From contig CAUJDF010000013.1 of assembly GCA_963169045.1 (NCBI GenBank), positions 1 to 64,000 on the forward strand: a DNA stretch of 64,000 nucleotides, in the 5' to 3' direction. Source of the DNA: Myxococcota bacterium. Lineage in GTDB: Bacteria; Myxococcota_A; Bradymonadia; UBA7976; UBA1532. This document shows positions 32,739 through 61,103 of this stretch, in pieces. The first letter of the stretch is position 1. The number at the start of each line of letters is the position of its first letter. Below the pieces are notes generated by a model, which saw only the letters and a list, made by a program, of their open reading frames with translations, ran no database searches and was not told the DNA's origin. A program made the position numbers and the translations under genes.

Positions 32739-32749
32739 ACCCCGTCGCG

Positions 32750-34045
32750 CTACGCGCCACCCCCGCCGACATCCCGCTCGATGCCATCCGCGCGCAACTC
32801 CTCGGCGGTCGCCGCCCGGGCGACGGTCCCCGGCGGGTGGTCGTACCAGCCGACGCCGCCCTGCGCCGGCAGCCGGGCGCGCACCTTGAGGAGCGTGGTC
32901 ATCCCTCCGAGGTCGAAGTGGCCGAACGGTCCCGGCCCGACCTTCATCGGAACGCTGTTCTCCGGCGCGGGCATCTTCATCTCGCCCATGTCGGCCATGC
33001 CCGCCGTGCCCATGCTCATGTAGCCCGGCACGAGCCGCTGCAATCGCGCCTCGAGGTCCGGCGGGACGTGCGCGCCCACCATCGCCGGCCGCGCGTGGCC
33101 CATCTGGTTCATCATGTGGTGGGTCATGTGGCAGTGCATGGCCCAGTCGCCCGGATCGCCGGCCACGAACTCGATGGTCCGCACGTCGCCCACCGACACG
33201 AGCACCGTCGTCTCCGGCACGCGCGCCGCCGGGGACACGGGACCGCCGTTCGTCGCAACGACCTCGAACACGTGGCCGTGCAGGTGGATGGGGTGGTGGT
33301 CCATCGGGCTCAGGTTGCCGATGCGGATGCGGACGCGCTCTCCGGTCTCGGCCACCATCGGCGTCGTGCCCGGGTAGGAGCGGCCGTTGATCGTCAACAC
33401 GTTGAAATCGCTGGGCTCCTGCGGCTCGGGCCGCGCCATGCCGGCGGGCACCATGAACTCGGCGAGCAGCAGCGCGTAGTCGCGGTCCACACGAGGGCCG
33501 ACGGGGCGCCGCGGGTGCACGACGATGAGACCCATCATGCCGAGGCCGACCTGGGTCATCTCGTCGATGTGGGGGTGGTAGAGGAACGTGCCCGCGCGGT
33601 CGAAGACGAACTCGTAGACGAACGTCGCCCCCGGCGGGATCGGCGGCTGCGTGAGGCCGCCCACTCCGTCCATGCCGTTGGGCAGCAGGACGCCGTGCCA
33701 GTGAACACTCGTGGGCTCCGGCAGATCGTTGCTGACGTAGAAGCGGCAGCGATCGCCCTCGGTCGCCTCGATGGTCGGACCGGGGACGCGGCCGTTGTAC
33801 GTCCAGGCGTTGATCTTCAGGCCGTCGACCACCTCGTGAACCGCCGGCGCGGCAATGAGGTGGAAGACCTTCACACCGTTCACCGTCCGCCAGGGGAGCG
33901 TGACGCCGTCCGGCGTCACGACGCGACCGCGGCTGCGCGCCTGCGGAACCGAGGAAGTCGCCTGCGCGAGCGCTCGGGGCGCCGCGCCGACCAGGGTGGC
34001 ACCGCCCACGGCGGCGAGGACTTCGCGCCGACTGGGTCCCGTCAT
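32750..34045 (-). CDS. two-domain multicopper oxidase, Tat-exported, Met-rich tail (cassette 1)
   Basis: This 431-residue enzyme begins with a twin-arginine signal (SRREVL, then ALAQ). Copper motifs are HWHG (about 115), LYHPH (160), HPIHLHGH (250) and HCHMTHHMMNQM (about 302-313). The short distance between the first and last motif fits a two-domain oxidase of the small-laccase type. A tail of about 110 residues after the last motif includes MADMGEMKMPAP, a likely Cu(I)-binding Met stretch. It probably oxidises Cu(I) in the periplasm. It lies two bases after the TolC-like gene and is paralogous to the oxidase at 43272-44591. Confidence 0.9.
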   Translation of the reverse strand: MTGPSRREVLAAVGGATLVGAAPRALAQATSSVPQARSRGRVVTPDGVTLPWRTVNGVKVFHLIAAPAVHEVVDGLKINAWTYNGRVPGPTIEATEGDRCRFYVSNDLPEPTSVHWHGVLLPNGMDGVGGLTQPPIPPGATFVYEFVFDRAGTFLYHPHIDEMTQVGLGMMGLIVVHPRRPVGPRVDRDYALLLAEFMVPAGMARPEPQEPSDFNVLTINGRSYPGTTPMVAETGERVRIRIGNLSPMDHHPIHLHGHVFEVVATNGGPVSPAARVPETTVLVSVGDVRTIEFVAGDPGDWAMHCHMTHHMMNQMGHARPAMVGAHVPPDLEARLQRLVPGYMSMGTAGMADMGEMKMPAPENSVPMKVGPGPFGHFDLGGMTTLLKVRARLPAQGGVGWYDHPPGTVARAATAEELRADGIERDVGGGGA

Positions 34046-40134: not shown

Positions 40135-40497
40135 ATGAGGAATCCACGTCGCCTTTTCGCAGCGATCTTCGCGCTGTCCCTGTCGCCCGTCGCGTCGTTC
40201 TCGCCGGCGGCGGCGCAGGAAGCGCCCGTCCGCGAGGTCGAGGTGATCGTCGACGGCGGGTACCGGCCCGACCAGATCACCGCTCGCGCCGGCGAGCGCT
40301 TGCGGCTGAAGTTCGTGCGTCACGAGGACGGCTCGTGCACGCGGGAGGTCGTCTTCCCGACCCTCGACATCCGCAAGGACCTGCCGCCGCACCAGCCCGT
40401 GTTCGTCGATCTGCCGGCGCTCGCGGCGGGCGAATACGAGTTCCGCTGCGGCATGAAGATGATCCGGGGCCGGATTGTGGTGGAGCCGGCCCGCTGA
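40135..40497 (+). CDS. periplasmic cupredoxin-like protein
   Basis: This 120-residue exported protein has a cleavable signal (to about residue 28, PAAAQ) and a single cupredoxin domain. The C-terminal FRCGMKM (Cys105, Met107, Met109) matches the ligand loop of cupredoxins of the EfeO/P-type-ATPase-associated type; His63 and Cys68 (RHEDGSC) may also bind metal. GGAGGTG precedes the ATG. The sigma factor gene starts nine bases after its stop. It probably binds periplasmic copper and could buffer or report copper for the sigma-factor circuit; the latter is inference. Confidence 0.87.
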   Translation: MRNPRRLFAAIFALSLSPVASFSPAAAQEAPVREVEVIVDGGYRPDQITARAGERLRLKFVRHEDGSCTREVVFPTLDIRKDLPPHQPVFVDLPALAAGEYEFRCGMKMIRGRIVVEPAR

Positions 40498-40506
40498 GGA
40501 AGCCCG

Positions 40507-41085
40507 TTGTGCGAACACGCCCCGCCGCGTCCGGACGGCGAGCCCGCGCTCGAGACCACGCCCGAAGTCGCTCGAGTGCTGGTCGAGAACCTTCGCCAGT
40601 TCCTGGCCTTCGTCGAGCACCGCGTCGGTGACCGCGCGCTCGCCGAGGACATCCTGCAGGACGCCTTCGTCCGTTCCCTCGACAAGCTGGCGACGCTGCG
40701 GGACGAGGAGTCCGTCGTCGCGTGGTTCTACCGCAGCCTGCGCAACGCGGTGACCGATCGCTGGCGTCGCCGCGACGCGTCGCAGCGGGCGCTGGCGGCG
40801 TTCGCCGACGAGCTGCGCGCCGAGGAACCGAACGACGAGGTGCACGGCGTGCTCTGCCGGTGCGTCGGGCAGCTCGCCGAGACGCTCAAGCCGGAGTACG
40901 CGGCGGCGCTGCAGCGCATCGAGGTCGACGGCGTGGCCGTGAAGGACTACGCGCAGGAGGCCGGCATCACGAGCAACAACGCGGCCGTGCGCGTGTTCCG
41001 GGCGCGCGATGCGCTCCGCAAGCATGTGGCGCGGTCCTGCGGCACCTGCGCGACGCACGGCTGCGTCGACTGCACCTGCGGCTGA
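40507..41085 (+). CDS. ECF RNA polymerase sigma factor with Cys-rich C terminus (CorE/ECF44-like)
   Basis: This 192-residue sigma factor has region 2 (about 25-95: DRALAEDILQDAFVRSLDKL, WFYRSLRNAVTDRWRR) and region 4 (about 120-175: AVKDYAQEAGITSNNAAVRVFRARDALRKHV). The linker carries a CRC pair (C117, C119), and the last 15 residues hold C178, C181, C186, C189 and C191. This arrangement is that of CorE-type factors, in which the cysteines sense copper redox state directly and no anti-sigma factor is needed. None is encoded here. The TTG start has GAGGAAG upstream. Five matching promoters within 16 kb form the likely regulon, including its own operon. Confidence 0.9.
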   Translation: MCEHAPPRPDGEPALETTPEVARVLVENLRQFLAFVEHRVGDRALAEDILQDAFVRSLDKLATLRDEESVVAWFYRSLRNAVTDRWRRRDASQRALAAFADELRAEEPNDEVHGVLCRCVGQLAETLKPEYAAALQRIEVDGVAVKDYAQEAGITSNNAAVRVFRARDALRKHVARSCGTCATHGCVDCTCG

Positions 41086-41823: not shown

Positions 41824-43251
41824 ATGCGCCAGCCGATTGCGACTGCGCTCGCCCTCCTGGTGTCCCTGGGGGGCTGCACGACCACCTCCGTTCGGTCCGA
41901 CGTGGCCGCCGTGAACGACCTGCTCAGCGTGCGGGACGCGCTGCCCGTCGCGGTCACCGTGCCGAAGGACGAAGCCTTCGCCGACACCGACGACGAGATC
42001 GAGAAGCTGCTGAAACAGCCGCTCTCGGCCGACGCCGCCGCCCGCATCGCCCTCCTGAACAACCAGGCGCTCAAGGCCTCGATCGTCGAGCTGGGCGTGC
42101 CCCGAGGCGCGCTCGTGCAGGCCGGCCTCGCGCCCAATCCCGAGGTCGAGTTCGCGATGAGCCGGCCGCTCGAGGGCCACCACGAGTTCGACACCGAGGT
42201 AGCCGTCGAATTCGACCTCTCGCGCCTCATCCTCATGCCGCAGCGGAAGGGCGTGGCCTCCGCGGAGTTGCAGGCCGCCCGCCAGCGTCTGGCCGGAGAC
42301 GTCCTCGACACCGCCCACCGCGCGCGCCTGGCGCTGTTCGACGTGCAGGCGGCTCAGCAGCTCCTCGAGCTTCGGACGCGCGCGCTGCAGAGCTTCCAGG
42401 CGGGATACGAGACCGCGGTCGAGCTGCACCGCGTCGGCAACGTCACCGACCTCGACCTCCTCACCGAACGGTCCGCGGTGGAGGCCGCGCGGGTCGCCGT
42501 CGCGGCCGCCGAGACGCAGGTCGTCGACGCGCGCGAGCGGCTGAACGTCGTGCTCGGGTTGTTCGGCGCGCAGACGAGCTGGACGGTCGCGGGGACGCTG
42601 CCGGCGCCCCCCGCCGAAGAAGTCCAGGCGGCGACGCTCGAACAGCGGGCCGTCGAGAGCAGCCTGGAGCTGGCGGAGCTGAAGGCGCGACTCGATGCGA
42701 CGGCGGGCCGCGCGGACCTCGCGAGCGCGAGCGGCTGGCTGTCGCACCTGGCCGTCGGCGCCCACGCCGAGCGCGAGGAGCAGGTCTGGGAGGTGGGCGG
42801 CCATGTGTCCGTCGGCATCCCGCTCTTCGACCGGGGGCAGGGTGAGGTGGCCTCCGCCGAGGCCCAGCTCCGCGGCCTGCAGCACCGCTACGTGCAAACG
42901 GCGACCGAAGCGCGCGCCGCCGCGCGAACCGTCTACAGCCGGACGGAGACGGCCCGGCGGAGCGCGATCCACCTGCGCGACGTGCTGCTGCCGTCGCGCC
43001 AGCACGCGCTCGAGGAGACGCTCCGCTTCTACAACGCCATGCAGATCGGCGTGTTCCAGCTCCTGCAGGCGCAGCGCGACACGCTCGACGCCGGCGTCGC
43101 CTACATCCAGACACTGCACGACTACTGGCGCGCCCGCGCCGCGCTCGACCTCGTCCTGGCCGGACGCCACACCGGGCTCGGGCTCGGCGAAGCCCGCGCC
43201 GGCTCCGTGATGCCCGCGGCCTCCTCCGGAGGCGGCGGCGACGCCCACTGA
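41824..43251 (+). CDS. TolC-family outer-membrane lipoprotein (cassette 2)
   Basis: This 475-residue protein has a lipobox signal (LVSLGGC) and two helical TolC repeats, with LSADAAARIALLNNQALKAS, LAPNPEVEFAMSRPL and SVGIPLFDRGQG as family marks. It is paralogous to the TolC-like protein of cassette 1. GAGGAATAAACC precedes the ATG. No RND partner is encoded beside it; instead a Tat-exported oxidase follows after 20 bases. It lies downstream of an ECF-type promoter, so copper induction is expected. Export function and substrate remain inferred. Confidence 0.88.
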   Translation: MRQPIATALALLVSLGGCTTTSVRSDVAAVNDLLSVRDALPVAVTVPKDEAFADTDDEIEKLLKQPLSADAAARIALLNNQALKASIVELGVPRGALVQAGLAPNPEVEFAMSRPLEGHHEFDTEVAVEFDLSRLILMPQRKGVASAELQAARQRLAGDVLDTAHRARLALFDVQAAQQLLELRTRALQSFQAGYETAVELHRVGNVTDLDLLTERSAVEAARVAVAAAETQVVDARERLNVVLGLFGAQTSWTVAGTLPAPPAEEVQAATLEQRAVESSLELAELKARLDATAGRADLASASGWLSHLAVGAHAEREEQVWEVGGHVSVGIPLFDRGQGEVASAEAQLRGLQHRYVQTATEARAAARTVYSRTETARRSAIHLRDVLLPSRQHALEETLRFYNAMQIGVFQLLQAQRDTLDAGVAYIQTLHDYWRARAALDLVLAGRHTGLGLGEARAGSVMPAASSGGGGDAH

Positions 43252-43271: not shown

Positions 43272-44591
43272 ATGAACCGCCGTAACTTCCTGCAGTGGAG
43301 CGCCCTCGCCGGGGGCACCCTGATCAGCTCGAAGGCGCTCGCCGCCCAGGCCGACGAGATCGTGCGCGCCGCGGGGGGACCGCCCGATCCGCCGCTCACG
43401 CGACCGAAGGTCGTCGCGCCCGGCGGCCAGGTCGCCGTGCACACGCCGAATGGCGCCACGCTGCCGCTGCGCACTGTCGGCAAGGTGCGCGTCGGGCACC
43501 TCGTGGCGATGCCGTTCGAGCACGAGTTCGCGCCCGGCCTGAAAGGCGAGGTGTGGGGCTACAACGGGCGAACGCCCGGACCCACCATCGAGGCGGTCGA
43601 AGGTGACGTCATCCGCCTGTACGTGACGAACCGGCTCCCCGAGCCGACGACCGTTCACTGGCACGGCGTGCTGCTGCCGAACGGCATGGACGGCGTTTCG
43701 GGCCTCACGCAGCGACCGATCAAGCCGGGCGAGACCTTCATGTACGAGTTCCCGCTGACGAAGGCGGGCACGTACATGTACCACCCGCACTTCGACGAGA
43801 TGACCCAGATGGCGCTCGGCATGGTGGGCATGTTCATCGTGCACCCGCGCCGGCCCGTCGGGCCCCGCGTCGATCGGGACTTCGCGCTGATGACGCACGA
43901 ATGGCAGATCGCGCCCGGCGCCCGGCGTCCGAATCCGAACGCCATGAGCGACTTCAACCTGCTCACGTTCAATTCGAAGGCCTTCCCGGGGACCGAGCCA
44001 CTCATGGTGCGCAAGGGCGAGCGCGTGCGGCTGCGCTTCGGCAACCTGTCGGCGATGGATCACCACCCGATCCACCTCCACGGCTTCGCGTTCGAGATGA
44101 CGGCTACCGACGGCGGCTACATCCCGCCGTCGGCGCGCATCCCGGAGACGACGGTCCTCGTCCCCGTCGGCAGCACGCGTGTCGTCGAGTTCGTGGCCGA
44201 CGCCCCCGGCGACTGGGCGATGCACTGCCACATGACGCACCACGTGATGACGCAGATGGGCCACGGCGGGCCGGTGATGGTCGGCGTCGACGCGAAGCGC
44301 ATCGACCGCCGCGTCCAGGCGATGCTGCCCGAGTACATGACGATGGGCCACGACGGCATGGGCGCGATGGCCGAGATGGACATGCCGTTCCCGAAGAACA
44401 GCCTGCCCATGCGCGGCACGCCCGGGCAGTTCTCGTCCATCGACATGGGTGGCATGTTCACCGTCGTGAAGGTGCGCGACGGCGAGGCGACCGAGTGGTA
44501 CCGCAACCCGGCGGGGACCGTCGCGGACGTGGCGGACCCGGCGAAGATGCGGGCCGACGGCATCGACCCGGACGCGAAGTTCGACGTCTGA
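43272..44591 (+). CDS. two-domain multicopper oxidase, Tat-exported, Met-rich tail (cassette 2)
   Basis: This 439-residue enzyme has a twin-arginine signal (NRRNFLQW, then KALAAQ). Copper ligands are HWHG (about 129), YHPHFDEM, HPIHLHGF and HCHMTHHVMTQM (about 317), spaced as in two-domain small-laccase-type oxidases. After the last motif about 110 residues follow, with MTMGHDGMGAMAEMDMP, a Met-rich Cu(I)-binding stretch also present in its paralog at 32750-34045. It likely detoxifies Cu(I) by oxidation in the periplasm. It starts 20 bases after the TolC-like gene in the ECF-controlled cassette. Confidence 0.92.
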   Translation: MNRRNFLQWSALAGGTLISSKALAAQADEIVRAAGGPPDPPLTRPKVVAPGGQVAVHTPNGATLPLRTVGKVRVGHLVAMPFEHEFAPGLKGEVWGYNGRTPGPTIEAVEGDVIRLYVTNRLPEPTTVHWHGVLLPNGMDGVSGLTQRPIKPGETFMYEFPLTKAGTYMYHPHFDEMTQMALGMVGMFIVHPRRPVGPRVDRDFALMTHEWQIAPGARRPNPNAMSDFNLLTFNSKAFPGTEPLMVRKGERVRLRFGNLSAMDHHPIHLHGFAFEMTATDGGYIPPSARIPETTVLVPVGSTRVVEFVADAPGDWAMHCHMTHHVMTQMGHGGPVMVGVDAKRIDRRVQAMLPEYMTMGHDGMGAMAEMDMPFPKNSLPMRGTPGQFSSIDMGGMFTVVKVRDGEATEWYRNPAGTVADVADPAKMRADGIDPDAKFDV

Positions 44592-44630: not shown

Positions 44631-44942
44631 TCAGCGCGGCTCGGCCGTATGCAGCGCGGCGACGAGCATCTCGAGCGGCGGCACACCCAGCAGTCTGCCG
44701 TCCGCTCCCTCGTAGAGCCGGCAGCAGGGGTCGGTCGAAGTCCGTTCGGCGATGTCCACGCCGTTCACCAGCACCGTCGGCGAGCCGAAGCCACGAACGT
44801 GGTCCGGCTCGGCCGGGTCGTCAATGCGAACCTCTCGCCAGATCGGAGGCTCGCCGATCTCGGCGAACGCCTGCTGCAACCGATCGCGCGCCGCGTCCAC
44901 GTTCGGACAGTCACCGGCAAACAGCAGTTCGACGATGGGCAT
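44631..44942 (-). CDS. thioredoxin-like small protein (DF-family type)
   Basis: This 103-residue cytosolic protein has a thioredoxin-like pattern: VELLFAGDCPNVDAARDRL at the N terminus with CPN at the active-site position, then GSPTVLVNGVDI and CCRLYEG. This matches the DF-family (seleno)protein group, in which the first Cys may be Sec; here it is an ordinary Cys codon. Function is unknown, though such genes often lie near mercury or other metal-resistance loci. It converges on the cassette 2 oxidase and precedes, on the other side, the CCxxC lipoprotein by 16 bases on the same strand. Confidence 0.7.
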   Translation of the reverse strand: MPIVELLFAGDCPNVDAARDRLQQAFAEIGEPPIWREVRIDDPAEPDHVRGFGSPTVLVNGVDIAERTSTDPCCRLYEGADGRLLGVPPLEMLVAALHTAEPR

Positions 44943-45622: not shown

Positions 45623-47938
<2,316 letters not shown>

Positions 47939-47941
47939 CCG

Positions 47942-50900
47942 ATGCCCGGCCTCCGCGCGCTCGCCGCCTGCCTGACGCTCGCCGCCCTCGGCTGCTCTCC
48001 GGGAGAACCGGCGAGCCGCGCGCCGACCGGGAGCGAGCGCCCGACCGACCCGCTCGCCGCCGCGCCGGGGGCGACCTGGCCGGCCCCCGCGCCCACGGGC
48101 GAGACCCGAGAGTACGCGCTCGTCGCCGCGCCGGCGGAGGTGCCGCTCCTCGACGGGCGGACGATGCGGGTGTGGGCGTACAACGGCCAGGTGCCCGGCC
48201 CGGTGCTCCGCGCGAAGGTCGGCGACCGCATGCGCGTCCGCGTGACGAACGGCCTCGATCAGCCCACGTCGGTTCACTGGCACGGAATTCGGCTCGCAAA
48301 CGCGATGGACGGCGTCCCCGGCGTCACGCAGCCGCCGATCGCGCCGGGGGAGTCGTTCACCTACGAGTTCCTGGCGCGCGACGCGGGCACGTTCTGGTTC
48401 CACCCGCACGTCCGCGGCAGCGAGCAGGTCGAGCGCGGCCTGCACGGCGTGCTCGTCGTCGAGGATCCGGCCGATCCGCCCGCCCGCGAGCTGGTCTGGG
48501 TGCTCGACGACTGGCGGTTCGGGACCGACGGCGAGATCGACCCGCGCTTCGTCACCCGGCACGACCTCGCCCACGACGGGCGCTGGGGCCGCACGATCAC
48601 CGTCAACGGCCGCGTCGCGCCGACGTTCGACGTCGCGCCCGGCGAACGGCTCCGCATCCGCATGATCGACGTCGCCAACGGACGCGTCTTCGTGCCGCGC
48701 GTCGTCGGGGCGGAGGCGCGGATCATTGCCTTCGACGGCCGACCCACCGCGCGTCCGCTCACGCTCGGCCGGGACTTCGAGATGGCCCCCGGCAACCGCG
48801 CGGACCTCGAGGTCGTCGCGCCGCCGGTCCCGGGCGTGGTCACCGTCGTCGACGACTTCGCGCGCGGGTCGCCGACGCTCGCGACGCTGCGCGTCACCGG
48901 CGAACCGCGCCGGGCGTCGGCGGGTCCCGCGTTCCCCGTCGCGGCGTCGCCCGACTGGAGCGCGGCGCTCGATCGCGAGCCCGACCTGCGGTTCGCGCTG
49001 AACGTGCGCCAGGGCGGGCCGTACGGGCTCGAGTGGATGCTGAACGGCGAGCCGATGCGGGACCACGGCGACGTGTCCGCCCACCACGGCACGGGCGCGA
49101 AGATGGCGCTCGGATCGTTCGTGAAGATGCGATTCGTCAACGAATCCTGGCGCTTGCACCCCATGCACCTGCACGGGCAGTTCTTCCGCGTGCTCGCCCG
49201 CGACGGCGTCCCCGTCGACGAGGGACGTTGGCGCGATACCGTGCTCGTCCACCCGCGCGAGACCGTCGACGTCGGCCTCGTCGCCGAGGATCCCGGCCGC
49301 TGGGCGCTGCATTGCCATGTGCTCGAACACCACGACTCGGGGATGATGACCGTCGTCGACGTGGAGGGGCGGGGGACGATGGGCAGCGCGTTCGGATTGC
49401 TCCTGAGCGGTCTCTCGTGGGCGCTCGCCGGCGCGTCTCCGGTGAAGGGCGCGATCGATCCGCCGGCCGCGCCCGGCGCGATGGCGCCGAACCTCACGGC
49501 GCAGGGAGACGAGGTGCGGCTGACCTGGCTCGAGCCGGCCGGCGACGGACACCGGCTGCGTTTCGCGGCGCTGAAGAAGGCGGGCTGGGACGAGCCGCGA
49601 ACCATCGCCGAGGGCGACGACCTCGTGGCGAACTGGGCCGACGTCCCCTCCGTCGCACGCGTCGCCGACGGTGCTCTGGTCGCGCACCACTCGCGTCACC
49701 TGGGCGACGGGAAGCACGCCTCCGAGGTGCGGCTCTCGCGCTCCACCGACGGCGGGCGCACGTGGCGCGATCTGGGCCCCGCCCACGACGACCGGACGCC
49801 CACGGAGCACGGCTTCGTCTCGTTCGTGCCGTCCGCCGGCGGCTTGCGCGTGGCGTGGCTGGACGGTCGCGAGACCCCGCCGGGTGGACCGATGACGCTG
49901 CGCGCGGCGCGGATCGATGGTGACCGTGTCGGTCCCTCGGAGGTGATCGACGCTCGCGTCTGCGATTGTTGCGGGACGGCCGCGGCCACGACCGCCGAAG
50001 GTGCGATCATCGCCTTCCGCGACCGCGGCGAGCGCGAAGTGCGCGACATCGCCGTCGCCCGCTTCGTCGGCGGCCGTTGGGAGGCGCCCCGGACCGTGCA
50101 CGCCGACGGCTGGGAGATGCCCGGTTGTCCGGTCAACGGCCCGGCCATCGCTGCGGACGGACGCCGCGTCGCCCTCGCGTGGTTCACCGGCGCCGGCGGC
50201 GCGTCGCGTGTTCGCGTCGCGTTCTCCGAGGACGCGGGGACCACGTTCGGCGCGCCGGTGGACGTCGACGGCGGGGCTCCGCTAGGTCGCGTCGGACTCG
50301 TGCTCCTGCCGGGCGGCGACGCCGTCGTGAGCTGGATCGAGATCTTGCCCGCGAGGAAGGCGGCCGTCCGTCTCCGGCGCGTCGCCGGCGACGGTCGCCT
50401 CGGCCCGCCCCTGACCGTCGCCGAGACGAGCCCGGACCGGAAGGCGGGCTTCCCGCGCCTGGTCCGGAGTGGTGACGACCTCGTCGTCGCCTGGACCGAG
50501 ACGAGCGAGCCATCGCGCCTGCGCGCCGCACGAGTGCCGTCCGCTTCGGTGAGCGCGGTCGGAAAGTCGCCGGAGGTAGTCGCGCCCACGCTCCCCGCGC
50601 CGGCGTTGCCGGACTACGCCGCGCCCGCGTCGGATGGGCGGGCGTTCTCGCTCGGCGATGCGCTCGGCAGCGTCGTGCTCGTGAACGTCTGGGCAACGTG
50701 GTGTCGACCGTGTCGGGCGGAGCTGCCCGTGCTCGCCCGCCTTCACGAGACCCATGCGCCACGTGGTCTGAGGGTCGTCGGCGTCTCTGTCGACGAGGAC
50801 GCCGAAGCGTTGCGCCGGCACCTCGCCGACGCGCCGCTTCCGTACACCGTCCTGCGCGACCCCGCCGGCGCCCCCCGCGCGTTCCGGGCGATGGCGGTCC

Positions 50901-51022
50901 CCGCGACGCGGCTCTATGACCGCTCCGGACGGCTCGTCTGGAGCCGTGACGGCGCGTTCTCGTCGGGCGATCCCGCCTTCGCCGCCGCGCTCGAAGCGGC
51001 GCTCGCTTCTTCGCCGCGCTGA
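47942..51022 (+). CDS. fusion protein: multicopper oxidase - BNR/sialidase-like propeller - TlpA-like thioredoxin
   Basis: This is one uninterrupted 1026-residue frame. Residues 1-17 form a lipoprotein signal (AALGC). Residues about 60-478 are a three-domain multicopper oxidase: HWHG (111), FHPH (153), HPMHLHG (406), HCHVLEHHDSGMM (456). At about 480 an internal MGSAFGLLLSGLSWALAG looks like a former signal peptide. Residues about 500-880 form a BNR-repeat propeller (SRSTDGGRTW, SEDAGTTF) with CDCCG and MPGCPVNGP. Residues about 885-1026 are a TlpA-like thioredoxin domain with WCRPC (about 919). It follows the ATPase by three bases. Likely role: periplasmic copper oxidation plus thiol-disulfide chemistry; the combination is unfamiliar to me. 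Confidence 0.88.
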   Translation: MPGLRALAACLTLAALGCSPGEPASRAPTGSERPTDPLAAAPGATWPAPAPTGETREYALVAAPAEVPLLDGRTMRVWAYNGQVPGPVLRAKVGDRMRVRVTNGLDQPTSVHWHGIRLANAMDGVPGVTQPPIAPGESFTYEFLARDAGTFWFHPHVRGSEQVERGLHGVLVVEDPADPPARELVWVLDDWRFGTDGEIDPRFVTRHDLAHDGRWGRTITVNGRVAPTFDVAPGERLRIRMIDVANGRVFVPRVVGAEARIIAFDGRPTARPLTLGRDFEMAPGNRADLEVVAPPVPGVVTVVDDFARGSPTLATLRVTGEPRRASAGPAFPVAASPDWSAALDREPDLRFALNVRQGGPYGLEWMLNGEPMRDHGDVSAHHGTGAKMALGSFVKMRFVNESWRLHPMHLHGQFFRVLARDGVPVDEGRWRDTVLVHPRETVDVGLVAEDPGRWALHCHVLEHHDSGMMTVVDVEGRGTMGSAFGLLLSGLSWALAGASPVKGAIDPPAAPGAMAPNLTAQGDEVRLTWLEPAGDGHRLRFAALKKAGWDEPRTIAEGDDLVANWADVPSVARVADGALVAHHSRHLGDGKHASEVRLSRSTDGGRTWRDLGPAHDDRTPTEHGFVSFVPSAGGLRVAWLDGRETPPGGPMTLRAARIDGDRVGPSEVIDARVCDCCGTAAATTAEGAIIAFRDRGEREVRDIAVARFVGGRWEAPRTVHADGWEMPGCPVNGPAIAADGRRVALAWFTGAGGASRVRVAFSEDAGTTFGAPVDVDGGAPLGRVGLVLLPGGDAVVSWIEILPARKAAVRLRRVAGDGRLGPPLTVAETSPDRKAGFPRLVRSGDDLVVAWTETSEPSRLRAARVPSASVSAVGKSPEVVAPTLPAPALPDYAAPASDGRAFSLGDALGSVVLVNVWATWCRPCRAELPVLARLHETHAPRGLRVVGVSVDEDAEALRRHLADAPLPYTVLRDPAGAPRAFRAMAVPATRLYDRSGRLVWSRDGAFSSGDPAFAAALEAALASSPR

Positions 51023-51133: not shown

Positions 51134-51246
51134 CCGTGGCGCGTCCGGTGACTGCCCGAGGCCTCGCGACGTTGGACGCGCACGTGCGGCGCTGTGTGGC
51201 GTCCGCCTTGCACGACGGCCGGACGATCCGACGGGGAGGTGACGGC

Positions 51247-52833
51247 ATGCATTCTCGATGGGGGCGGCTCGCCGCGGCGCTGACGGCCCTGGCGTTCACC
51301 GCGTGCGGTGGGCACGGCGCTCACGACGGTGAGAGCGACGGCGGAGGCCACGAGGGCCACGGAGGCGCAGGCAGCGACGCCGGTGCCGGCGGCGGACACG
51401 ACGGTCATGGTGGTGGCGGCGCGGGCGGTCATGCCGCCGGCAGCGTTCCGGCCGTGTGGGACGCGCCGGTCTACGAAGGCCAGTGGAACACCGCGCCCGC
51501 GGCCGACCTCGACGCGTCTCCGAACGTGCTCGAGGTCGAGCTGGTCGCCCGTGCCGCCGACGTCGAGTACCTGCCCGGCAAGACGGCCGCGGTCTGGACA
51601 TACAACGGCACGGTGCCCGGGCCCGTCCTCGAGGCGCGGGTCGGCGACCGCGTCATCGTTCACTTCCGCAACGAGCTGCCCGAGGAAACGACGATTCACT
51701 GGCATGGAGTCCGGGTCCCCGCCGCGATGGACGGCGTGCCGGTGCTTCAGACCCCCGTGCCGCCCGGCGGCACGTTCGACTACGAGTTCTTCGTCCCGGG
51801 CGCGGGCACGTTCTGGTACCACCCGCACGTGCGCTCCGACGAGCAGGTGGAGCGCGGCCTCTACGGCGCCATCGTCGTGCGCGGCGACGGCGAGCCCGAT
51901 GTCGGCGGCGACGAGGTCCTCGTTCTCGACGACGTGCTCGTCGACCAGGAGGGCGCCCTCGCGACCTTCGAGTACGACCCGGCCGAGGCCGCGATGGGCC
52001 CGCCGATGCTCGGCCGCCAGGGAAACGTGATCCTCGTGAACGGCCGCCCGCGTCCACGCGTGGCGCTGCGTCCCGGCGAACAGCGGCGCTGGCGCCTGAT
52101 CAACGCCGCCAACGCGCGCTACTTCCGGCTGTCGGGCGTTCGCATGACGCTGATCGGCACGGACGGGGGTCTGCTGCCGGCGCCGCGCGACGTCGACGAA
52201 CTGCTGCTGGTCCCCGGCGAGCGGGCCGACGTCGTGGTCACGGCGCCGGCGGAGCACGGCGCGGAGGTGGATCTCGTCACGCTGCCCTACGATCGCGGTC
52301 ACGGCACCGGAGAGGCCCCAGCGGCCAACGTGCTGCGCCTGTCGACGACGCACGGCGCGCCTGTCGAGGCGCGCCCGCTGCCCGAGACGTTGCGCATCAT
52401 CGAGCCGCTGCCGGCGCCGGTCCGCACGCGGAGCTTCCGCCTGAGCGAGGAGGTCGGCGGCGGTCACGCCGGACACGGCAGCGGCGGCGCGACCGGCGAG
52501 CCCGTGTTCAGGATCAACGGCGAGGCCTTCCCGGACAACGCGGCGCTCGAGACCGAACTCGGGGCGGTCGAAGAGTGGACGATGATCAACGAGTCGGAGA
52601 TGGACCACCCGTTCCATCTCCACGGCTTCTTCTTCCAGGTCGTCTCCCGCGGGGGACGTGCGGAGCCGCCGGCCTGGAAGGACACCGTCAATCTGCGCGG
52701 CCGTGAAGAGCTGGTGCTCCGGGTCCGCTTCGACGACCACCCGGGTCGCTGGATGTACCACTGCCACATCCTCGAGCACGCGGAGCGGGGGATGATGGGC
52801 GAGATCGACGTCCGCGCGCCGGCGACGCCCTGA
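51247..52833 (+). CDS. three-domain multicopper oxidase lipoprotein with His/Gly linker
   Basis: This 528-residue predicted lipoprotein (lipobox AFTAC) has a Gly/His-rich linker of about 50 residues (GHGAHDGESDGGGHEGHGG) before the oxidase. Copper motifs are HWHG (about 151), YHPHVRSDEQ, HPFHLHG (about 453) and YHCHILEHAERGMM (about 504), a full three-domain spacing. It is probably tethered in the periplasm or on the outer membrane and oxidises Cu(I) or organic substrates. ATG 51247 follows a GGGGAGGTG site. It has no ECF promoter motif, but an inverted GTGACC repeat lies upstream. Confidence 0.9.
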   Translation: MHSRWGRLAAALTALAFTACGGHGAHDGESDGGGHEGHGGAGSDAGAGGGHDGHGGGGAGGHAAGSVPAVWDAPVYEGQWNTAPAADLDASPNVLEVELVARAADVEYLPGKTAAVWTYNGTVPGPVLEARVGDRVIVHFRNELPEETTIHWHGVRVPAAMDGVPVLQTPVPPGGTFDYEFFVPGAGTFWYHPHVRSDEQVERGLYGAIVVRGDGEPDVGGDEVLVLDDVLVDQEGALATFEYDPAEAAMGPPMLGRQGNVILVNGRPRPRVALRPGEQRRWRLINAANARYFRLSGVRMTLIGTDGGLLPAPRDVDELLLVPGERADVVVTAPAEHGAEVDLVTLPYDRGHGTGEAPAANVLRLSTTHGAPVEARPLPETLRIIEPLPAPVRTRSFRLSEEVGGGHAGHGSGGATGEPVFRINGEAFPDNAALETELGAVEEWTMINESEMDHPFHLHGFFFQVVSRGGRAEPPAWKDTVNLRGREELVLRVRFDDHPGRWMYHCHILEHAERGMMGEIDVRAPATP

Positions 52834-53014: not shown

Positions 53015-55162
53015 ATGCGCGGGTCGATGCGGCTCTGCCTGTTGGCGGCCGTCCTGGTGGCGTGCGGCGACGACGGAGCGGCCGGAAGTGGCGCCACCGA
53101 CGCAACGCAGGGCGACGCGCGCGCCCCGGACGCAGGCTCCGACGCTCGCATCGACGACGGTTCGCCGCCGGACGCTCGCCCGCCCGCGCCCGACGCCGCG
53201 CATACCGACAGTGGCCTACCGGACGGCAGTCCTTCCGATGGGGCCGTGAACGACGGCGCCTTCGACGCGGCGCGGCCCGACGCGCAGGTGCCGACGCTCG
53301 ACGCCGCGCCGCCGACACCCGACGCTCGGCCGCCGATGCCGGATGCGGTTCTGCCGGATGCCACGCTCGACACGGCGGCGCCCGACGCGGTCGTCGATGC
53401 CGTCGCGCCGGAGGCCGCGCCGCCAGACGCCATCGCCGACGCGGCCGTGCCCGATGCCACTCCCGACGCGGCCGCGCCCGATGCCACTCCCGACGCGGCC
53501 TCGCCCGCCTGCCGCGAGCGCGTCTTCGGCCGGGTCGTCGCCGACGGCACCGGAGAGCCCATCGCCGGCGCTCGCGTCACCCTCCTCCGCGACGACGAAG
53601 GCGAGTTCTTCGAGGCGCGCACCGGTGCGGCCGGCGACTTCGCGATCGACGGTGTGCCGGCGGGACGCTACGCCGGCGGCGCCTCCGCGCCGGGGAGGGC
53701 CTACGTCGAGCAGGTCGTCGATCTCGACGGCGGCTGCCTCGACCTGTCCATCGCGCTGGGACCGGAGACCGAACGAGGCCGTTGGGATCGCCTCGGGGAT
53801 CCCGGCGAACGCTTCGGCGGCACGAACTCCGGCGTCCTGCTGCCCGACGGTCGCGTGATCTGGTGTCACGACACGCGCGATCCCGTGATCTTCGACCCCG
53901 CCGCCGAAGGGCACGCGCGCTTCCAGGCGGGCGCCGACTCCGGGACGATCCAGGGCTGCCATGCCGTCAGCGTGCTCGATGACGGCCGCGTCCTGTACGT
54001 CGGCGGCGCCGACCGTCCCGTGTACGGCCCGGGCACGCGCCAGGTGAAGCTCTACGACGCCGTCGCCGACCGCTGGACGGTCATGGAGGACCCGCAGCGC
54101 CTCAACGACGCGCGCTGGTACCCGAGCCTCGCGCCGCTGCCCGGCGGCGGCTTCCTCACGATGGGCGGCGGCGGGCTCGACAACCCGGTGCGCATCCGCA
54201 GCACCGAGGTCCTCGACCCGGTGACCCTGCGGTGGCGGCGCGTCGGCGACCTGGCGATCGGGAACGAGGTCTCGCCGGTGGTCCTGCTGTTCACGGGCGA
54301 GGTGCTGATGACGCACCGCCCGCCGCAGCTCTACGATCCGGCGACCGAGCAGTGGCGCCTCGCGGGCGACTTCGTCCAGGGCCCGCGCATGCCGAACGGC
54401 GACCACGCGGACCACGAGATGGTCCTGCTGCCCGACGGCCGCGTCGCCGCCATCGGCTACAAGAGCTTCGTCGCCGGCCAGCCGGGGCAGATGCTCGAGG
54501 TCTACGATCCCGCCATCGATCGCTGGTCGCTCGGCGCCCCGGTCCACCCGGTCCGGTCACGGCCGAGCATCGTGATGCTCCCGGACCGACGGGTTCTGGT
54601 CATGGGCGGCGCGAAGGAGGAGCGCGACGATCCGACGCCGGTGAACCGCTGGAACCAGGTCGCGCTCACCGATGCCTACGACCCGACGACCGACACGTGG
54701 CGCCGCCTGGCCGACATGAACCTGGCGCGCGAGTACCACGCGATGCCCATCCTCCTGCCGGACGGTCGCGTGCTCGTCACCGGCGGCGAGGAGGCGCCCG
54801 GGAACGAGCCGAGCGCCAGCGTCGTGGAGGTGTTCTCGCCGCCGTACCTGTTCCGCGGCCCGCGACCGCGCATCACCGAGCTGGCCGAACGCCGCTTCGC
54901 GGCCGGCGACGAGGTTCGCTTCCGCGTCCAACGCACGCGGGGGGTCACGGGCGTGGCGCTGCTCGGCGCGATCGCCACGACCCACTTCATGGACTCCGGC
55001 CCCGGCCGCTACCTGGACCTGGACTTCCAGCAGGCCGGTGACGAGGTCGTCGCGCGCCTCCCCGCGGAGGCCGCCCGCGCGGTGCCGGGGCACTACATCC
55101 TCGTCGCGCTCGTGGACGACGTGCCCTCCGAGGGCGTGATGGTCTCGATCCGGCGGCCTTGA
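53015..55162 (+). CDS. galactose-oxidase/glyoxal-oxidase-like copper radical oxidase lipoprotein
   Basis: This 715-residue predicted lipoprotein (lipobox VLVAC) has an Asp/Pro/Ala linker (about 20-165, PDA repeats) and a carboxypeptidase-regulatory-like domain (about 167-240). A kelch-type propeller and a C-terminal Ig-like domain follow. Residues expected for a Cys-Tyr radical copper site are present: Cys315 (GCHAVSVLDDG), Tyr369 (ARWYPS), Tyr574-His575 (AREYHAM) and His657 (THFMDSG). This matches family AA5 oxidases, which turn alcohols or aldehydes into aldehydes or acids with release of H2O2. Substrate unknown. It lies between two multicopper oxidases. Two starts (53015 and the Met at 53027) are both compatible with a signal. 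Confidence 0.85.
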   Translation: MRGSMRLCLLAAVLVACGDDGAAGSGATDATQGDARAPDAGSDARIDDGSPPDARPPAPDAAHTDSGLPDGSPSDGAVNDGAFDAARPDAQVPTLDAAPPTPDARPPMPDAVLPDATLDTAAPDAVVDAVAPEAAPPDAIADAAVPDATPDAAAPDATPDAASPACRERVFGRVVADGTGEPIAGARVTLLRDDEGEFFEARTGAAGDFAIDGVPAGRYAGGASAPGRAYVEQVVDLDGGCLDLSIALGPETERGRWDRLGDPGERFGGTNSGVLLPDGRVIWCHDTRDPVIFDPAAEGHARFQAGADSGTIQGCHAVSVLDDGRVLYVGGADRPVYGPGTRQVKLYDAVADRWTVMEDPQRLNDARWYPSLAPLPGGGFLTMGGGGLDNPVRIRSTEVLDPVTLRWRRVGDLAIGNEVSPVVLLFTGEVLMTHRPPQLYDPATEQWRLAGDFVQGPRMPNGDHADHEMVLLPDGRVAAIGYKSFVAGQPGQMLEVYDPAIDRWSLGAPVHPVRSRPSIVMLPDRRVLVMGGAKEERDDPTPVNRWNQVALTDAYDPTTDTWRRLADMNLAREYHAMPILLPDGRVLVTGGEEAPGNEPSASVVEVFSPPYLFRGPRPRITELAERRFAAGDEVRFRVQRTRGVTGVALLGAIATTHFMDSGPGRYLDLDFQQAGDEVVARLPAEAARAVPGHYILVALVDDVPSEGVMVSIRRP
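53449..53504 (+). repeat. 27-bp direct repeat in the PDA linker
   Basis: The unit CCCGATGCCACTCCCGACGC with its following bases occurs twice in tandem in frame, extending the Pro-Asp-Ala linker of the copper radical oxidase. It probably arose by slippage. Confidence 0.6.
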
Positions 55163-55226: not shown

Positions 55227-56732
55227 GTGTCGAGGAAGTCGTGGGTGGTGCTCCTGGTCTGTCTGTCGTGGGGATGCGAAGGCGGCGGCGGGGGCGGTGA
55301 CGACCCGTCGCCGGACGCCGCCGCGCCCGACGCCGCGGTCGAGGCGCCGACGCCGGACGCCGCCGAGGCGCCGGCGGACGCTTCGGTGACGCCCGAGCCC
55401 GATGCCGCTGCGCCCGCGCCGCCGCTGCCCGAAGTGCAGGGGCCGGCCCTCGCCGAGGACATCAACCCCGACGCGCGCATCGTCGAGGTGAACCTCAACG
55501 CCAGCAAGCAGCGCGTCCGCCTCGCCGACGGCGCCACCGTGGAGATGTACGCGTACAACGGCCAGGTGCCGGGGCCGATGATCCACGCCCGCCAGGGGGA
55601 CACGATCATCGTCCACTTCACGAACGCGCTGGACGAGGACACGACCATTCACTGGCACGGTCTGAGGATCCCCGCCGACATGGACGGCAGCCCGCGCATC
55701 CAGGCGCCGGTCCGGCCCGGCGAGACCTTCACGTACACGTTCCAGGCGCCGGACGCCGGCTCGTACTGGTACCACCCGCATGTCCGCGCCAACGAGCAGG
55801 TCGAGAAGGGGCTGTACGGCCCGATCGTCATCCGCGGCGAAGACGAGCCCGCGTACGACGCCGAGCGCTACCTCATGCTCGACGACATCCTGCTGGACGA
55901 CGACCAGATCGCCCCGTTCATGTCGAACCACATGGAGGAGATGCACGGTCGGACCGGCAACGTGCTGCTCACCAACGGCCGCGCCGAACCGGCGTCGAGC
56001 ACCGCGCGTCAGGGCCAGGTCGAGCGCTGGCGCATCGTCAACACCGCGAACGCGCGCACGATGTCGCTCGGCATCTCCGGCGCCACCTTCCGCGTGATCG
56101 GCACCGACGGCGGCTTGCTCGCGACGCCGTACACCATCGATCGACTCGAGGTGCCGGTCGGCCAGCGGTACGACGTCGAGGTCAGCTACGGCGACGCCGG
56201 GCGCGCGTCCGTGCGCAGCTACGTGCTCGTGCTCGACGAGAACGACAACGTCGTCGAGGAGCCGTTCGAGGTCTTCGCCGTCGACGTCGCTCAGACCGGG
56301 GCGTCGCCGCGCACCGTCGAGTGGCCCGAGATCGCGCCGCCCGCGCGGCGTCCGGTCGCCGAGACGATCGAGCTGCGCTTCAACGGCCGCCAGACGGCGC
56401 ACGGGCTCGAGTGGACGATCAACGGCCAGGCGCACGCGCACGAGCCCCTGTTCACCTTCACGCAGGGCGAGACCGTGCGCATGCGCCTCATCAACGAGGC
56501 GGGCCCGGAGCACCCGTTCCACCTGCACGGCCAGTTCTTCACCGTCGAGAACGGCCCGGCGCTGACGACGCCGCAGCCCGGCTTGAAGGACACCGTACTG
56601 GTGCCCGGCCAGAGCACCGTCGTCATCCGGGCCAACCTCGACAACCCCGGCCGCTGGATGGCGCACTGTCACATCCTGGAGCACGCCGAGCTGGGGATGA
56701 TGTCCGAGTTCGTCGTCGAGCCGGCGCCCTGA
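55227..56732 (+). CDS. three-domain multicopper oxidase lipoprotein with PDA linker
   Basis: This 501-residue protein has a lipobox (LSWGC), a Gly stretch and an Asp/Ala/Pro linker (about 20-70), followed by a three-domain oxidase: HWHG (about 142), YHPHVRANEQ, HPFHLHG (about 430) and HCHILEHAELGMM (about 480). It closely resembles the oxidase at 51247-52833 in motif context, suggesting duplication. It is probably surface-tethered and acts on Cu(I) or phenolic substrates. It starts 64 bases after the radical oxidase with GGGGGTGAT upstream and is likely co-transcribed with it. Confidence 0.9.
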   Translation: MSRKSWVVLLVCLSWGCEGGGGGGDDPSPDAAAPDAAVEAPTPDAAEAPADASVTPEPDAAAPAPPLPEVQGPALAEDINPDARIVEVNLNASKQRVRLADGATVEMYAYNGQVPGPMIHARQGDTIIVHFTNALDEDTTIHWHGLRIPADMDGSPRIQAPVRPGETFTYTFQAPDAGSYWYHPHVRANEQVEKGLYGPIVIRGEDEPAYDAERYLMLDDILLDDDQIAPFMSNHMEEMHGRTGNVLLTNGRAEPASSTARQGQVERWRIVNTANARTMSLGISGATFRVIGTDGGLLATPYTIDRLEVPVGQRYDVEVSYGDAGRASVRSYVLVLDENDNVVEEPFEVFAVDVAQTGASPRTVEWPEIAPPARRPVAETIELRFNGRQTAHGLEWTINGQAHAHEPLFTFTQGETVRMRLINEAGPEHPFHLHGQFFTVENGPALTTPQPGLKDTVLVPGQSTVVIRANLDNPGRWMAHCHILEHAELGMMSEFVVEPAP

Positions 56733-59562: not shown

Positions 59563-59699
59563 GGCCCGTGCCGCCGGCCGACTTGCGACTCGCCGGCATG
59601 CCGATGCCCGCCTTCGCCCTCGGCGCGGGGCATATCGCCCCGTCGGATGCCCACGTCGCGTCGGTCCTGCCGGACCGGGGATTGCACGACCCCGGGGAC

Positions 59700-61103
59700 A
59701 TGGACCGGCACGGCCACCCGCCGCCGATGGTCATGATGGCCGTCGACCACTACCGCATGTACCGCTGGGTCCAGGCGCCCATCGCGGTGCTCTCGCTCTG
59801 GCTGATCACGAGCCCGTTCACCCTCGGATACACGAGCCGCGCGCTCATCGTGAGCGACGTCGTCAGCGGCGTGGTTGCCCTCGCGATGTCACTGTTCGCG
59901 CTGCACCCGAGGCGCGGACTCGTCTCGTGGCTCATCGCGGCGGTCGGACTCTGGCTGCTCTTCGCGCCGCTCCTCTTCTGGGCGCCGGAGGCCGCCGCGT
60001 ACGCCAACGACACGCTCATCGGCGCGTTCCTGATCGCGTTCGGCCTGATCATTCCCATGAGCATGGAGATGAAGGGGCCGGCGATCCCGCCGGGCTGGTC
60101 GTACAACCCGTCGTCGTGGCCGCAGCGCGCGCCCGTGGCGGCGCTCGCCTTCCTGGGTTTCCTCGCCTCGCGGTACATGGCCGCGTACCAGCTCGGGTAC
60201 ATCGACTCGGCCTGGGATCCCTTCTTCGGCGACGGCACGCGCCGCGTCCTCGACTCCGAGGTCTCGCGGATATGGCCGGTCTCGGACGCGGGGCTCGGCG
60301 CGGCGACCTACGTCATCGAGCTGCTCATGGCGCTGATGGGCGATCCGCGCCGCTGGCGCACCATGCCGTGGATGGTGGCCGGCTTCGGCGTGGTCGTGGT
60401 GCCGCTCGGCATCGTCAGCATCGCGCTCATCGTCATGCAGCCGCTCGCGGTCGGCGCCTGGTGCACGCTCTGCCTGTTCACCGCGGTGACGATGCTGGTG
60501 ATGATCCCGCTCTCGCTGGACGAGGTCGTGGCGATGGTCCAGTTCGTCGCGCGCGAGAAGCGGGCGGGCCGCAGCGCGTGGCGCACCTTCTGGCTCGGCG
60601 GCGACCTGCCGGACGACACGCCGACGTGGCGGACGACCCGCCCCGAGACCTGGCGCCCGCACGGCATGCTCTGGGGGGTCACCGGCACGTGGAGTCTCTG
60701 GCTCGCGGCCGCCGCTGGCGTCTGGCTGATGTTCGCGCCGGCGGTGTTCGGCATCTCCATCGAGGCGGCCGCCGCCGACAGCGACCACCTGGTCGGCGCG
60801 CTGGTCGTCGTGGTCGCGGTCATCTCGCTCGCCGAGGTCGCGCGGCCGGCGCGCTTCCTCCTCGCGCCGCTCGGGCTGTGGCTCGTGGCGGCCCCCTGGT
60901 TCCTCGAGGGCGCGACGGTCGCCTCGCGCCTGAACAGCGCGCTCGTGGGTGTCGCGGTGGCGCTGCTCTCGCTCCCGCTTGGCCGGCTGCGCGACCGCTA
61001 CGGCCGCTACGACCGCGTCGTCCTCTGGAGCCCGCGCCCGAGCGCCCGCGCGCGGCACGACCGCATGGAGTGGGGGCCGCGCCCGCCCGTCGGGGTCCGC
61101 TGA
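59700..61103 (+). CDS. SPW-repeat / vitamin K epoxide reductase (VKOR)-family membrane protein
   Basis: This protein of about 467 residues has SPW-type repeats (LSLWLITSPFTLGY near the start and WSLWLAAAAGVWLMF later) flanking a VKOR-like domain with the redox motif WCTLC in GAWCTLCLFTAVTM. VKOR enzymes use quinones to reoxidise DsbA-like proteins, so a role in periplasmic disulfide formation is likely. An earlier GTG at 59568 is possible but leaves no room for a promoter against the divergent gene, so I prefer ATG 59700. It ends one base before the GH15 start. A link to the TlpA-like fusion protein is conceivable. Confidence 0.75.
   Translation: MDRHGHPPPMVMMAVDHYRMYRWVQAPIAVLSLWLITSPFTLGYTSRALIVSDVVSGVVALAMSLFALHPRRGLVSWLIAAVGLWLLFAPLLFWAPEAAAYANDTLIGAFLIAFGLIIPMSMEMKGPAIPPGWSYNPSSWPQRAPVAALAFLGFLASRYMAAYQLGYIDSAWDPFFGDGTRRVLDSEVSRIWPVSDAGLGAATYVIELLMALMGDPRRWRTMPWMVAGFGVVVVPLGIVSIALIVMQPLAVGAWCTLCLFTAVTMLVMIPLSLDEVVAMVQFVAREKRAGRSAWRTFWLGGDLPDDTPTWRTTRPETWRPHGMLWGVTGTWSLWLAAAAGVWLMFAPAVFGISIEAAAADSDHLVGALVVVVAVISLAEVARPARFLLAPLGLWLVAAPWFLEGATVASRLNSALVGVAVALLSLPLGRLRDRYGRYDRVVLWSPRPSARARHDRMEWGPRPPVGVR

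Follow-up and report, generated by a model that had tools for sequence, protein, structure and literature searches.

A multicopper oxidase, a CxCC beta-propeller and a TlpA-like thioredoxin domain encoded in one open reading frame within a Myxococcota copper cluster

Are a multicopper oxidase (MCO), a beta-propeller and a thiol-disulfide enzyme, which occur as products of separate genes in other genomes, indeed joined in one protein at this locus, and what could such a protein do? In the window, that is the whole stretch of 64,000 nucleotides analysed here, the frame opens with an ATG at 47942 and runs through 1026 codons with zero internal stops to the TGA at 51020-51022 (Table 1). Pfam assigned Cu-oxidase_3 to residues 68-177, Cu-oxidase to 217-286, Cu-oxidase_2 to 383-475 and AhpC-TSA/Redoxin to 889-999 of the encoded protein. 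An AlphaFold2 model of residues 480-1026, built on an alignment of 69 sequences, gave a beta-propeller with a thioredoxin fold behind it, at a mean pLDDT of 92; in the full-length model, with few oxidases in the alignment, the MCO half was uninformative. The open frame, the Pfam domains and the fold model bear out the sequence-only reading that three periplasmic modules share one frame, and the CDCC, GCPVNGP and WCRPC motifs named there are all present. A chance origin of the frame can be discounted, because the propeller-TlpA part is a conserved unit and the oxidase retains each of its four copper-ligand motifs. The one-frame fusion in the window is real.

Table 1. Features of the fused reading frame and of the genes upstream of it, with positions in the window
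Feature	Position	Strand	Basis
TolC-type outer membrane efflux protein	41824..43251	+	PF02321
Separate MCO of the same cluster	43272..44591	+	Profile match
Copper-translocating P-type ATPase, ending 3 bases before the fused frame	45623..47938	+	TIGR01511, 614 bits (cut-off 397)
Fused frame, 1026 aa: MCO, relic signal, CxCC propeller, TlpA	47942..51022	+	Frame, Pfam, AlphaFold2
N-terminal lipoprotein-type signal, MPGLRALAACLTLAALGC18	47942..47995	+	Sequence; top hydrophobic 15-mer of the protein
MCO, residues 68-475; HWH 112, HPH 154, HPMHLH 406, HCHVLEHHDSGM 457	48143..49366	+	Pfam and motifs
Shine-Dalgarno-like GGAGG upstream of internal ATG 49379	49363..49367	+	Anti-Shine-Dalgarno energy
Linker GRGT, residues 476-479, read as translated former intergenic spacer	49367..49378	+	Sequence; ends of unfused relatives
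Putative relic internal signal, residues 480-497, without lipobox Cys and Lys/Arg	49379..49432	+	Alignment, sequence
Seven-bladed beta-propeller of the CxCC family, residues about 502-870	49445..50551	+	Alignment, AlphaFold2, fold match
CDCC, residues 674-677 (Cys 674, 676, 677)	49961..49972	+	Invariant in 69 homologues
GCPVNGP, residues 728-734, with fourth conserved Cys 729	50123..50143	+	Sequence, alignment
TlpA/ResA-like thioredoxin domain, residues about 886-1020	50597..51001	+	Pfam, NCBIfam, PDB and fold matches
WCRPC redox motif, residues 920-924	50699..50713	+	Sequence

The N-terminal half is a three-domain MCO which passed all three Pfam cut-offs (Cu-oxidase_3, 137 bits against 21; Cu-oxidase, 31 against 21; Cu-oxidase_2, 95 against 20.4) and retains the complete set of copper ligands, HxH, HxH, HxxHxH and HCHxxxHxxxxM. 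It resembles the CopA/PcoA- and CueO-type copper-resistance MCOs in its three cupredoxin domains, its four ligand motifs and its copper ATPase and TolC-type neighbours. However, it scored far below the NCBIfam equivalog cut-offs for CopA (171 bits, cut-off 479) and CueO (145 bits, cut-off 525), and it differs from these enzymes by its lipoprotein-type signal and by the propeller and TlpA domains at its C-terminal side.

The oxidase part ends with MMTVVDVE, and the four codons of GRGT then lead to M480, the onset of a hydrophobic segment. Unfused relatives of the oxidase terminate at the strand which reads VVDVE here, or no more than a few residues away from it. The bases before the ATG at 49379, gtggaggggcgggggacg, include GGAGG, and the anti-Shine-Dalgarno energy at this codon (-9.8 kcal/mol) ranks second among the 50 in-frame ATG/GTG codons and approaches that of the strongest gene starts around it. 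Given these oxidase ends, the GGAGG and the strong predicted pairing, GRGT is best read as the ribosome-binding spacer of an old second gene, translated after loss of the oxidase stop. The stretch 480-497, third most hydrophobic 15-mer of the fused protein, matches the position at which separate homologues begin with a signal peptide of their own, so that the relic export signal claimed by the sequence-only reading is well supported. Most homologues carry a lipobox Cys and an early Lys/Arg in this signal, whereas the internal signal of the fused protein has neither. Their loss would fit a relic that is out of use, as supportive evidence, since some Planctomycetota members of the family also lack both. 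Given the Shine-Dalgarno sequence at 49379, the second half may still be made separately as well.

The middle module belongs to a propeller family defined in this analysis by the motifs NWxDxP, (E/Q)HGF, WLDG, CxCC and CPVNGP, all of which are present in the window protein; plasmid members were compared too. The cysteines of CxCC are invariant (69 of 69 family sequences), as is the fourth cysteine in all 68 sequences that reach that far. Neither Pfam nor NCBIfam has a model dedicated to the family; BNR_2 matched the window propeller with 24.9 bits, below the gathering cut-off of 31.4, and gave weak matches in 24 of the 69 members. Plasmid records label the protein 'sialidase family protein', while the word sialidase is absent from the R. 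litoralis genome paper (PMC3141670). The comparison with BNR_2 or sialidase-type propellers rests on fold similarity, together with Asp-box-like SxDxGxTW repeats; the CxCC propeller differs by seven motif repeats, a cysteine site and a sub-threshold or weak Pfam score. Fold matches to CylK, PLL-type lectins, GH145-like and PL25 propellers, with about 6-15% identity, tell the fold and not the function, and the 60 best PDB sequence hits were all thioredoxins, with no propeller among them. Literature searches within one open-access library found no papers on the CxCC family. A copper propeller which did turn up in the literature is thiocyanate dehydrogenase.

Seven motifs, AMAPN (residue 513), NWAD (564), EHGF (622), CDCC (674), CPVNG (729), PLGR (780) and AGFPR (835), follow each other at a spacing of 51-58 residues, and in the AlphaFold2 model every one of them coincides with, or shortly precedes, the strand that opens a blade. 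CxCC lies in one of these seven blade-entry loops, and other invariant N/D/E/H/R residues occupy the sister loops. The motifs may encircle the pore on one face and together form a composite site, and the setting of CxCC fits a metal site or a composite active site. CxCC is not an active site of the thioredoxin type, and on this point the sequence-only reading needs changing.

The C-terminal domain is a TlpA/ResA-like thioredoxin, which matched AhpC-TSA/Redoxin with 62.5 bits (cut-off 26), carries WCRPC and gave fold matches to 3gl3 and 3kcm. It shares the thioredoxin fold and WCxPC with the periplasmic TlpA/ResA proteins, its nearest solved relatives being 3kcm, 3gl3, ResA and TlpA, but scored under the equivalog cut-offs and sits behind a propeller and an oxidase.

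Elsewhere the propeller-TlpA unit is a separate and mostly lipidated protein. Its closest relatives share 43-51% identity over the full length, and in Myxococcota the propeller usually bears TlpA. A search for the three-domain architecture returned the window fusion as the sole case in the collections searched, with an oxidase fusion in 0 of 90 other non-redundant relatives. Further fused copies were found neither in 84,980 species genomes scanned with two peptide patterns (74 loci), nor in 379 genomes of the phylum, nor among the plasmid hits, where the genes are separate in the eight regions opened. At the MCO relatives L137, L144, L135 and L140, long open frames turned out to be run-on reading ahead of the gene, the MCOs ending normally, and a 1028-codon frame at L096 consists of two genes overlapping in different frames and is no fusion.

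Separate neighbouring genes, which the sequence-only reading had suggested looking for, were found in other genomes. With gene calls made in this analysis, an MCO or copper ATPase homologue lay at most 6 genes away in 9 of 20 TlpA-bearing loci versus 2 of 71 propeller-only loci, where the 20 take in the window and the near-identical L028/L029, and L119 was shifted to this group by hand, its TlpA domain being below cut-off. At L125, propeller-TlpA, a CsoR/RicR-like repressor, a copper ATPase, TolC and an MCO follow in a row; the L119 cluster comprises TolC, MCO and propeller-TlpA, and at L021 propeller-TlpA is followed by CopA. Six of 14 propeller-TlpA genomes have an MCO or ATPase within about 7 kb, corresponding to P of about 2e-7 at an assumed background of 2%, a value uncorrected for relatedness, clustering of resistance genes and short contigs. 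A rough hand estimate of this background gave about 1.5%, counting 15 kb for each of about 130 MCO/ATPase places over about 127 Mb.

On Roseobacter plasmids (e.g. pRLO149_83; Phaeobacter and Sulfitobacter plasmids) an oxidase and a CxCC propeller likewise share one cluster, several of which also hold TolC, DsbA or metal ATPases; in contrast to the fused frame, all genes are separate and the propeller is without TlpA. A multicopper or copper oxidase was present in 8 of 8 propeller neighbourhoods opened and a DsbA-type gene in 4 of 8, several clusters showing the order TolC, oxidase, ..., cytochrome c, propeller. The oxidases of three plasmids matched the fused oxidase better than any other oxidase of the window. 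These matches and the shared clusters indicate that relatives of the fused oxidase and of the propeller occur together as separate genes, DsbA replacing TlpA. The pairing of a copper oxidase with a thiol-disulfide enzyme thus recurs in Myxococcota loci and on Roseobacter plasmids. In Flavobacteria (L030-L090), the CxCC propeller directly follows rimO in 17 loci, a conserved chromosomal arrangement, and neither MCO nor copper ATPase was found near these rimO-adjoining propellers; the role of the propeller may therefore not be copper. It is the gene neighbourhoods that support the copper link of the family, which is likely a so far unnamed component of copper-resistance clusters.

The window itself is rich in copper genes: in addition to the fusion, it encodes four more MCOs and a second copper ATPase (30753-33994, 43272-44591, 51136-52833, 55227-56732). 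A Kelch/galactose-oxidase-like protein (53015-55162, + strand) with a weak match to GlxA, a radical copper oxidase, lies between two MCO genes. A gene 8.5 kb downstream of the fusion (59568-61103, + strand) links a VKOR (disulfide-forming) domain to an SPW repeat domain, so that another thiol-disulfide enzyme is encoded in the vicinity of the copper cluster. On the minus strand (44631-44942), a small protein shows a sub-threshold relation to the 'DF family (seleno)protein' model; L119 and L125 have homologues in their propeller clusters as well. At 40135-41085 (+ strand), a cupredoxin domain protein precedes an ECF-type sigma factor, a possible cluster regulator.

How could the fusion have arisen and act? 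We tentatively propose a reading whose chances, taken as a whole, fall slightly short of even. A stop codon would have been lost between two adjacent operon genes, encoding a lipoprotein MCO and a propeller-TlpA protein, and the product would belong to a copper-resistance cluster and be located in the cell envelope. CxCC and the fourth cysteine, at the mouth of the pore, would bind Cu(I); copper or oxygen might oxidise these cysteines to a disulfide, the TlpA domain would reduce them again, and the MCO domain would convert Cu(I) to the less toxic Cu(II), with transfer between domains of the fused chain. That a TlpA domain in cis keeps CxCC reduced for Cu(I) is proposed by analogy with Bradyrhizobium TlpA, which reduces the copper proteins ScoI and CoxB before metallation (PMC6696091). 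The fusion of genes that are separate elsewhere suggests that copper oxidation and thiol chemistry act jointly, and the functional proposal of the sequence-only reading, in which a copper oxidase tied to a thiol-disulfide enzyme might mend disulfides damaged by copper or load cysteine sites with copper, is reasonable but unproven. A bolder generalisation, which we hold to be unlikely, would make the CxCC propellers a new periplasmic copper-thiolate class with a site built from blade-entry loops, and MCO, propeller and thiol-disulfide enzyme a recurring detoxification module, present here as one chain.

The frame might yield two proteins in practice, if the internal start at 49379 or cleavage after export between ALA and GAS (496/497) frees propeller-TlpA and leaves the full-length chain as a minor product or precursor. 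The strong Shine-Dalgarno sequence, the AxA site after the hydrophobic stretch and the separate state of all other relatives make this conceivable; but the frame is open across the junction and the internal signal has lost the charge and the lipobox Cys typical of most homologues, and we consider such an outcome somewhat doubtful. The single fused example also raises the question of an assembly or sequencing error, since its G-rich junction is represented by the assembly sequence and a one-base indel in the G run 49366-49375 would join genes that are separate in the organism; with the frame shifted, the oxidase would stop at TGA 49404, in a 26-base overlap. Such an indel would, however, have to hit the roughly 10 bases that separate the ATG from the final conserved codon of the oxidase, and the decayed look of the inner signal is not explained by sequencing error, which renders this explanation improbable.

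Very improbable, in our view, is a propeller that binds or cleaves carbohydrate or cell wall and lies in metal clusters by coincidence. Its top structural matches and the sialidase label of the plasmid records point that way, as do L,D-transpeptidase genes found near the propeller on several plasmids, but identity to those folds is low, three cysteines are among the invariant residues and the copper neighbourhoods recur across distant phyla.

If the proposed stop-loss origin and envelope copper unit are true, a widespread family misnamed sialidase, carried on conjugative marine plasmids, would belong to bacterial copper resistance; the natural fusion would identify the two working partners of this family and provide a testable tie by which copper oxidation in the cell envelope would be connected with the redox control of thiols there. 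Should the fusion alone hold, it would still be a plain example of two neighbouring operon genes merged via a Shine-Dalgarno spacer, the signal of the second gene persisting inside the frame. The CxCC propeller family, with its likely part in copper-resistance clusters, is a wider and more useful result than the fusion itself.
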